In this document: positions 53,447-57,452 of the stretch, piece after piece | Layout: the number at the start of each line of letters is the position of its first letter | Numbering within the stretch: the first letter of the stretch is position 1 | Origin: Brugia malayi | Lineage: Eukaryota; Nematoda; Chromadorea; Rhabditida; Onchocercidae | Length of the DNA stretch: 64,000 nucleotides | Direction of reading: 5' to 3' | NCBI RefSeq assembly: GCF_000002995.4 | Contig: NW_025062478.1 | Span: forward strand, 5,680,001-5,744,000 | Program-made: the position numbers and the translations under genes | Notes under the pieces: model-generated | What the model was told of the DNA's origin: nothing | Seen by the model: the letters and a program-made list of their open reading frames with translations, nothing else | The model's database searches: none

Positions 53447-56400
53447 TTATGGGACACATCGACCAACAAAGCGTGGGTAAAAACACACATCGCGAATATG
53501 ATTGGTGTTTGTTAACCAACAAATAAAACGTTCCAAGCCAAGTCCATATCCACCATGTGGACAGGTGCCATATAAACGTTGATCCAAGTACCAGTAATAT
53601 GGTTTCGGGTCAATTTCCACATTTTTAAAAGCTTTCGATAGTTCATCGAACTAAAATATACGAAGAAATTGTTAAAAAAAAGAAAAAAAAAAAAAAAAAA
53701 ACGAAGAAAATGAATAAGAAAACTCCAGAAAATTCCTTTTTTTGAAATGTGTATTAGTGAAGTTTTGACTAATATACCTTCCAAACTCTCATACTGCCAC
53801 CAACAATTTCGCCAACGCCAGGCATAAGAAGATCAACAGATTCTGTTAAAGTATTATCGTGCGCATCCTTCTGCATATAAAATGCCTTAATTTCGCTCGG
53901 GAAACGATTCAGTAGAATAGACTATAATATAAATCACAAATGCAAATAAAAAGAGAAGTAAAAGTTATTTCTGTTATTAAGTTAATTAATTCGAATCTCT
54001 AGAACTATCAAATTCTATTCTGTTATATTCTCGCTATAATCATGATGAATAAATATTTATGAATAAGTCAGAAATGAAAGAAGAAAAATGAATAAATCAT
54101 TTTTCACATTAGACGTAAACAAGCACCAAGGTCAATTTTTTAAAAATACAAATTCTAACTCCAAACAGCAGCGCCTAATTTAAATTACCCGAAAATAATC
54201 CCGCAAAGACTTACCTTGTTGATGGTATCAGTCATGAAACGTTCCGCTGCTTCAGCAATATCTTCCCCATAACTAAAACTATTACCAAATTCATTCTGAA
54301 CATTGTGTTCTTGCAACCATTTAATAGCATCCTTATATTCCATTCTTAAAAATGGCCTTTTTGGCCGTTGAAATTTCTGCAAAAAGAGGATATAAGACAA
54401 TTATCATTGATAAATAAAGGAAAACGTAAAGTATCAGTGAAAGAAAACTCCTCGTGTATATATTATAACTCTAATAAAGAACAACTTTATTAACTATATG
54501 TTTTTTAAAATGATTATTGATTTTTGAGAAAGAATAAATTTTGTGAAGTAAGAAAATATCGAAACAAAAGGCAGAAGTTCATACTCATCGAATGTTTTAA
54601 ACTTTTTTCCTATTACAACTGACTATTTTAAGCATATAAACAAGAACTACTGAAAATATAAGCTAAAAATTTAGCATATCATCCAAAAAAAAAAAAAAAA
54701 AAATCAAAAGCGAGAGAAAAAATAACTGGATTGATGTGCTTCAATAATTTTTTTGCTTCCTCGTCAGCTAAAAGTCGATCCACTGTGTCACAAACCAGTT
54801 CTTCAATTTTCTCCATCAGATCATCCAGCGTTATGAAAGGACATTCGGCTTCAACATGTGCATATTCCGCCAAGTGTCGACGAGTACGAGATTTTTCCGC
54901 CCTTAAAAAAGCATTCTCAATAATAATAATGATTAAAAATATTGATAAAAACCGAATAACATTCACATAAAGTCTGCAGTTTTTTCTAATTTATCAACTA
55001 CGAGAAATGTTTTCTATTCATAAAATAAATCACATCTCTCTTCCACAACATTAACACAATACATCATTACATTTCAGTTACAATAAAGTATTATTATTAA
55101 GCTTTTAATTATAGATGGCAATATCATTCTAACATTTTGCTAACCATTAACGCCAAAAAATTTCATAATAATTATGATTACTGGAAACCAACTAGTGCCG
55201 TAGCATTATGATGACACATAAAAAATGTATGTTCGCTAAAAATTTCACCTTTTTAAAATCATTCCTGCATAAAAATCGGAATAATACATACAAATCTGTA
55301 AGACTGAGCAATGCAGAAGACATCACCAAGAGTGGGAATGCAAGTTTCTAAATAGAGCTGTGATGATTGCGTAAGAAAAGACTGTTCACCAAAATAGTCC
55401 AGATTAAATAACGGTGATCCACCTTCTACCTAGAAAAAGATAATTTTCAATCATTTCATCGATACACATATATTATCCTAACATCACTTCATCAAATATA
55501 ATGTAACCTGCGTTTGCACTAAAGTCGGTGGTGCAACTTCCACATAGCCAGCATTATAGAAATGTTCTCGCATTGCTCGAGTAGCAGCTGCTCTCAAACG
55601 TAGCAAAGCGGCAGCATTTTCACCTCGAATAACCAAATGTCTATTGTCCAACATTTTGTCGACACTTGCTTCTTCGTTTAACACATTATCAATGCCTGCA
55701 ATGAATATAAACTACCGAAATTTAAATTTTCTTATCTATTTCTACTAGTGCATAACAATCTAACTTATTAGTACGGTGAAATAAGTTAACTACACATCAG
55801 CATATGATAAAATATATCATGATCAAATGTGACAAGTTTCATATTCCTTATGCCCGATTAAATCTAACAGTACGCTATATGTATTCAAACAGGCCTTACG
55901 ATGATTCTCATAATAACCTTCAACTTTTCCCCATAAACACATTCCCTAAGTCCTTTCAGACATTCACAAGAAATTTCTGTTTTTTTTCCTGGAAAGTTCT
56001 ATGATTATCTAAAAAAATAATCTTTCAAAATATCACCAACGTAAGCATATGTACCTGTAACTATATTATTTAGCTATCAATATTTTCTTTAAAGTACTTC
56101 ATATGAAATCTCAATTATTCTATTTTAAAAATTAATTTACGGCATACGAATTACAATTACGAAAAATAAAAATAAGCGCATAGAACAAAATAAATAAAAA
56201 TAAAATGAACGAAATAATTGAACAATACCTCCAGGAGGTGCGCTTCCTATTATTTTTCAGAAATCAGCTATTAACTCATGCCCATTCGGTGCCTCTTTAC
56301 CTTCCGGAACTTCCTTTATTGTACCGTATATCTCAACCGTGCAATCAGTATTCACAGTGAGAGCGTCATACGTCTGGCACTAAAAAAATTTTAATTAATA

Positions 56401-57452
56401 AATTTTGTTCTATAGAAAATGGTATCATTTATATAATCAGCTCATTATTATTTTCTGGTTGTTATCAAAATTTTTCTATCAATTCTACGGCATAAAGATC
56501 CGGATCATATTCCGCAGTAAAAAATAACTAACTAGTTTATCCATGAGTAGTACTTGAAGGAAACCAGTACCATCTCGAAGGATGAAAAATATCAATGATT
56601 TTCCTAAACATATGGAAAATATGCAAAGACGAATATAAATAAATGTATATATAATCTTTACAAAAAAAAAAGAAATATCTCAAACAATAATCTATTTCAC
56701 TGAACAACTAGTTGTGATAATCAACGAATAATAATTGTAAAATACCTTGTCGACGCATCCTATGAATCCTTTAATGAGATCACGAATCTTCAGACCAGTG
56801 ATACATGACAGACTCGTTTTCAGTTCCACTTGCACTTTTTTGGCTTCTTCAAGAGCTGCTTTTACTCCCACTTCTGTCGCATCCTTCTCTAACATATAAA
56901 AAATACAAACAACTTATTAAATGCTACTCATTAAATATTTCTTATATGATGAAGCTACCTATTTTTAATTCATTTTTCGCCAATAAATTAAAGTAACACC
57001 TCGTCTCGCCGTCTCTTCTAACAAGCAAACTACTCAATTCATATTTTCAAAAAAAAAAAAAGCAATCTCACCATTGCAGCAACTTTTTCATTCTTCAACA
57101 TTTCTTGCTCGTAACGTTTCCAACTTTTCTTCAGTGCCGTCTTTGAAGCAACTTCCCATATTTGTTTTCCATCCTTCGTAGTCCTTATTAAGAAGTCACC
57201 TTTTGAAGACTTAGTAATTATCATCGCTTGATAAAGCGTCCTGCAGTCCAATTATCGAAATTTAATTTAATGCAAAAACTCCAGAAGTTTATACAATTTA
57301 ATATAGCCTTCTTAACATTGCTTCTTTGAAATTTTAAATCTAAGAATAACTACATAAAAGTACCAAAAATTAAAAAAAAATTGCCTTAAAGGTTTCAATT
57401 CGCTACCATCATTACCATCATCTCCAGTTTCTGGACAAATGTACACAGTCAT
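53447..57452 (-). pseudogene. nars-1: Cytoplasmic asparaginyl-tRNA synthetase, full length but disrupted
   Basis: Homology blocks cover the whole enzyme: 57385-57452, about 57060-57240, about 56742-56890, about 56534-56600, 56229-56379, 55508-55695, 55296-55429, 54727-54901, 54215-54376, 53778-53921 and 53447-53650. AsnRS charges tRNA-Asn in the cytosol. The N-terminal extension ([13 protein letters not shown]), OB-fold ([17 protein letters not shown]), motif 1 region (PPTLVQTQ), motif 2 ([10 protein letters not shown]) and motif 3 (GYGLGLERF) are visible. Lesions: the acceptor before block 3 reads AT where AG is expected; a deletion plus frameshift lies between IRDLIKG and [11 protein letters not shown] replaces TGG in ADF-W-KIIG (56257-56259); no GT donor can make SYRAEKSR at 55296. 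Exon 1 also has a GC donor. Introns are kept, so this is an unprocessed copy, unless the assembly is wrong at several places. Confidence 0.75.
56257..56259 (-). other. In-frame TGA in the AsnRS locus
   Basis: On the minus strand the codon string GCT GAT TTC TGA AAA ATA ATA interrupts the segment where AsnRS has ADFWKIIG. A single G-to-A change of TGG explains it. No alternative splice around it keeps the frame. Confidence 0.85.

Follow-up and report, generated by a model that had tools for sequence, protein, structure and literature searches.

Results

The window analysed here, a stretch of 64,000 nucleotides (C138:5680001-5744000 of the 87-Mb Brugia malayi assembly G000, C138 being a 13.5-Mb contig), contains a gene for cytosolic asparaginyl-tRNA synthetase (AsnRS) on the minus strand (57452..53447) and, head to head with it, the complete tau-tubulin-like kinase gene Bm9989 on the plus strand (57988..61686; 8 exons), with 535 bases separating the two start codons. 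All 11 exons of AsnRS can be followed from the ATG at 57452 to the last base of the stop codon at 53447, as had been claimed in an earlier note on this DNA whose coordinates agree exactly with ours, and the 10 introns are kept at positions which, in an exon-by-exon comparison, are identical to those of intact copies found elsewhere in the genome.

When set exon by exon against the six copies found elsewhere in the assembly, AsnRS of the window exhibits five lesions, the GC donor after exon 1 included, whereas the earlier note had listed four. Exon 1 (57385..57452, all exons on the minus strand) includes the start codon and is followed by the non-consensus GC; as GC donors are known from some introns, this is the mildest of the five. 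Exon 2 (57072..57240) is followed by an exon 3 (56746..56895) that is not preceded by an AG acceptor and has suffered an internal 31-base deletion, leaving 150 bases vs 181 in the six other copies and causing a frameshift. Beyond exon 4 (56533..56603), exon 5 (56229..56379) is interrupted at codon 204 by an in-frame TGA, the residue at this codon being Trp in all six intact copies, in the Wuchereria bancrofti protein P0002 and in all six outgroup proteins. After exon 6 (55508..55695) comes exon 7 (55296..55429), behind which the GT donor is absent; exons 8 (54727..54901), 9 (54215..54376), 10 (53778..53921) and 11 (53447..53650, including the stop codon) complete the gene.

A chance resemblance to AsnRS can be dismissed, because exon 6 by itself agrees with the solved B. 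malayi AsnRS at 65 of 65 aligned residues. Likewise, the domains PF20917 (AsnRS_N) and PF00152 (tRNA-synt_2) both score above cut-off at the exon level, with the reading frame that would connect them being disrupted. Given five lesions here and none in the six other copies, along with the kept introns, the locus is, as judged from its sequence, an unprocessed pseudogene, in agreement with the earlier note. A working gene, which the perfect match of exon 6 might suggest, was ruled out since four exon or splice regions are damaged and since the solved structures (residues 112-548) fit the type encoded on contig C137. A haplotig was considered for the window and rejected, with the locus lying inside a 13.5-Mb contig.

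The kinase, which was the neighbour chosen for checking, is 100% identical to the annotated Bm9989, and its introns are of the GT-AG type. It has relatives at 99% in W. bancrofti, at 89% in both Onchocerca flexuosa and Litomosoides, at 86% in Thelazia and at 76% in Ascaris.

Searching the assembly at the DNA level yielded seven AsnRS loci in total, in addition to 34 short matches. The six loci outside the window are full-length copies with 85-86% DNA identity to it, of which five are located on C137 (near 10.850, 10.866, 10.885, 13.600 and 13.621 Mb) and the sixth on the unplaced contig C105. Each has 548 codons, a single final stop and consensus splice sites, so that the intact AsnRS which the earlier note had suggested looking for exists in six places; a search with the AsnRS_N domain (13 of 13 candidates scored) returned seven matches, at the same seven loci. 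Over aligned bases the six copies are 96.4-100% identical to each other and each is ∼92% identical to the window; pairwise dS among them is at most 0.017, and the coding sequences of the three copies at 10.85-10.89 Mb of C137 are identical. The true copy number is uncertain, considering these identical coding sequences and the status of C105 (18 kb), which may be a haplotig of some C137 copy. AsnRS has been stated to be multicopy in B. malayi (PMC4709172), and the accessible part of PMC6498573 describes a group of five genes on chromosome 3; from the match to five loci, we infer that C137 is chromosome 3.

The 63-kDa antigen already described and the solved catalytic-domain structures of B. 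malayi both correspond to the C137-type protein, the structures showing single-residue differences from the intact-copy type. The deposited 63kd antigen of B. malayi (P0001) and the protein encoded on C105 exhibit 15 differences, all within residues 315-330. These sit at the exon 7-8 junction and are suggestive of identical bases having been read in a shifted frame, which may go back to a sequencing error in an old cDNA.

The relation between the window and the six copies extends beyond AsnRS. A first donor block, 52919..58649 (A-B), is present in all six, with the match ending at 58649 in four copies, at 57998 in the 13.60-Mb copy and at 58688 in one, for which alternative search settings likewise place the end at 58649. 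A second block, 61953..62899 (C-D), is joined directly ahead of 52919 in six of six copies, with its orientation kept; the two blocks thus occur in flipped order. The break at 58649 falls inside kinase intron 3, and the kinase is whole in the window only, whereas AsnRS copies elsewhere have at most its first three exons. The intervening donor stretch with kinase exons 4-8 (58650..61952) is absent from these copies: the assembly DNA search gave no match for it on C137 or C105, and five other matches, each spanning 65-124 query bases.

In the derivatives, the donor ends A and D are fused at a short homology. This is a direct repeat of ∼33 bases, present at the left (52919..52951, plus strand) and right (62872..62905, plus strand) ends of the donor, with one mismatch and one gap between the two, and once per junction. 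Its 26-base core occurs eight times in the assembly at up to three mismatches, two of these sites lying in the window and the other six being spread singly over the copies, and a reversed control occurs zero times. Among 300 random window pairs placed 10 kb apart, four draws equalled the repeat's score of 27.5, every one of which had sampled the ∼33-base repeat itself, and the next best score was 17. A dispersed repeat as the source of the junction was ruled out, all eight occurrences in 87 Mb being donor ends or junctions.

Several further features were noted around these units. A daughter-type kinase fragment (C137:10890571-10891653, corresponding to 57603-58649 of the window) lies ∼3 kb from the 10.885-Mb AsnRS copy and is devoid of AsnRS, since it starts upstream of the AsnRS coding part. 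Where the stretch is comparable, the kinase fragment of the daughter copies lacks ∼33 bases near the kinase start (57999-58031 of the window), for example in L010 near C137:10868610. The daughter unit at L010 is flanked by a ∼450-base direct repeat with 89% identity (C137:10860338-10860788 and 10869371-10869796), related sequence recurs at the termini of further units (L013, L014), and this repeat may have driven the amplification of AsnRS. In the window itself, a 243-base stretch (51789-52031) has a 99% copy at C138:5995067-5995309, and the adjoining ∼51440-51625 and ∼51860-52000 have many diverged genomic copies and represent repeat elements.

AsnRS of the window differs from that of C105 at 77 exon bases (1616 aligned) and at 195 intron bases (2188 aligned); for this reason, the window gene is to be read as an old diverged copy and not as a misread of an intact one. 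For 532 comparable codons, dS is 0.153 and dN 0.023. As their ratio is 0.15, much of the divergence would have accumulated under constraint. By exon group, the ratio is 0.10 for exons 1-2, 0.21 for exons 3-5, 0.03 for exons 6-8 and 0.34 for exons 9-11. Thirteen residue changes, the stop included, are private to the window when position 110, where five of six outgroups have the window residue, is left out. Eight of the 13 hit outgroup-invariant positions, close to the expectation without constraint (360 of 533 positions being invariant), vs one of the 12 changes found in W. bancrofti P0002 alone (p 0.011 in a Fisher comparison based on 25 sites and one predicted W. bancrofti protein). Including position 110 (14 changes, p 0.014) leaves the conclusion unchanged. 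Setting 13 changes in 1252 sites against half of dS roughly places the death of AsnRS in approximately the final 14% of the period elapsed since duplication.

W. bancrofti P0002, a gene prediction whose protein exceeds the 548 residues of Brugia AsnRS by 46, may perhaps be a living counterpart of the window locus. The extra residues correspond to intron-5 sequence of the Brugia loci. P0002 and the window have one clearly derived residue in common (451) and perhaps a second (53), P0002 has none of the five residues derived on the C137 side, and its insert attains a score of 133 with the window, compared with 103-120 for the copies. Position 110 conflicts with such a pairing, and some parts of the insert are nearer to the copies.

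Discussion

Our comparison of the seven loci suggests that the window very probably represents the original home of AsnRS, from which a rearranged daughter escaped, took over and was amplified, and that the home copy subsequently died. The kinase is whole at this locus and incomplete in every copy, because of which we take the window to be the donor; the assignment rests on kinase completeness in the B. malayi assembly. A donor of ∼10 kb (52919-62899) would have been copied with its ends joined at the short direct repeat, either in a circle or in a tandem-duplication junction, to give a piece in which 61953-62899 is fused to 52919-58649 and which comprises the whole of AsnRS and only the first three kinase exons. 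A whole kinase could once have been present in the C137 copies and have been lost before amplification. Having arrived on C137, the piece would have taken over the work of AsnRS and given rise to the five assembled C137 loci and the one on an unplaced contig. The now redundant home gene would have been freed from selection and thus have acquired splice-site, frameshift and nonsense lesions, with its kinase neighbour staying whole. The identities found among the six copies and between each of them and the window form the pattern expected from one escape followed by amplification.

The earlier note had considered a recently dead, unprocessed duplicate to be the simplest explanation, and it must be weighed whether C137 has always been the functional home and AsnRS with its flank was copied into the window. 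The living genes do sit on C137. However, copies truncated for the kinase in six of six cases could not have supplied the window with kinase exons 4-8, and the donor blocks are the two ends of one window interval, yet are fused in every copy. We thus regard this reading as improbable: 'recently dead' is plausible for a locus whose dN/dS, taken across the entire divergence, has remained at 0.15, and 'duplicate' is probably wrong for one that holds the whole kinase and whose order is flipped in all six copies. Errors of assembly or sequencing in a working gene are hardly credible as a source of the lesions, considering that five separate ones would fall into one gene adjoining an intact kinase, inside a 13.5-Mb contig, and that eight of 13 private residue changes affect invariant sites. 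A locus that is not fully dead and still gives rise to some short product, such as the N-terminal domain of exons 1-2, would be in line with exons 1-2 remaining open, with their low dN/dS and with a single window-only change in them (position 79). Yet exons 6-8, which lie past the stop codon, exhibit an even lower ratio, which makes this measure uninformative on a special role, and the exon-1 donor is non-consensus; we consider such a product very improbable.

Closer to our preferred history is a variant of it that differs in the intermediate. Recombination between the direct repeats may have duplicated 52919-62899 in tandem, a linear piece extending across the junction may have been copied to C137, and the home array may have collapsed later. 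The flipped order may stem from either a DNA circle or such a copied junction, and the latter accounts for the flip about as well as the former. A circle implies the loss of 3.3 kb at its opening point, as 58650-61952 is missing from the daughter copies and opening at a single point without loss is thus not what is seen, whereas a tandem-duplication junction yields the identical fused order without this loss; moreover, a direct repeat of ∼33 bases is a fit substrate for recombination. Against this, remnants of a second unit are absent past 62905, the matches of window 61900-64000 to the copies stopping at 62899. Hence, we consider the tandem route a serious possibility, albeit one to which we lend a little less than half of our belief.

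Returning to the escape of AsnRS from the window, its timing may be connected with W. bancrofti. If P0002 is indeed the counterpart of the window locus, for which a residue or two speak and one position conflicts, the escape may have preceded the split of Brugia and Wuchereria and the death may have followed it. It is then tempting to speculate, even if we consider it rather unlikely, that AsnRS changed chromosome via a DNA circle before this split, that both copies were kept for a while, and that the home copy died on the Brugia side only. AsnRS is, as we take it, an essential housekeeping gene and also a secreted host-signalling protein. Were it true that sister species had resolved the pair differently, some offspring of a cross would be without AsnRS, and this would be a case of incompatibility through gene relocation with the donor site still readable. 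A stage with two copies of AsnRS thus offers a testable route to species incompatibility.

The findings also have practical implications. The AsnRS family of B. malayi, a studied antigen and drug target, gains an origin: the multicopy genes known so far have the appearance of daughters and the original that of a relic, which is to be excluded from primers, gene models and copy counts. Furthermore, with six derivatives, a repeat at the junction and a donor that can still be read, the system is a compact natural case in which gene escape via circular or tandem intermediates can be tested in a nematode.

The published B. malayi group comprises the same number of genes as there are intact loci on C137 (PMC6498573), and in their accessible parts the accounts of the gene group (PMC6498573, PMC4709172) are silent on a relic located on a different chromosome, on its lesions, on kinase fragments and on a flipped junction. 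A literature search, with subscription journals mostly outside its reach, found no published account of the AsnRS relic or of the flip. Precedents for the flip are circular-DNA-mediated segmental duplications in human and translocations in cattle, for which the accessible part of PMC7450558 treats the change from A-B/C-D to B-A/D-C as a signature left by a circular intermediate. Our six copies resemble the human duplications in that the order is flipped and the donor ends are fused within the copy in six of six cases. They differ in their scars, which in the cases described there are two-base microhomologies, short insertions or directly adjacent bases (PMC7450558), whereas a ∼33-base repeat is found here, and in that those circles open at a single point, whereas 3.3 kb are missing here from a donor of only 10 kb. 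Because of this missing stretch and the longer homology at the fusion, we describe the relocation of AsnRS as working like a duplication through a circular intermediate, rather than as a proven case of one.

In Drosophila, the essential gene JYAlpha reportedly moved between chromosomes by duplication and loss of the original. AsnRS would likewise have changed chromosome by way of a duplication with its original being lost, and differs in that the dead original can still be read and the daughter was amplified. That the original of a duplicated gene dies is an event of a known type; the present case is distinguished by the combination of an essential gene with a readable donor, a common fusion point and an amplified daughter.
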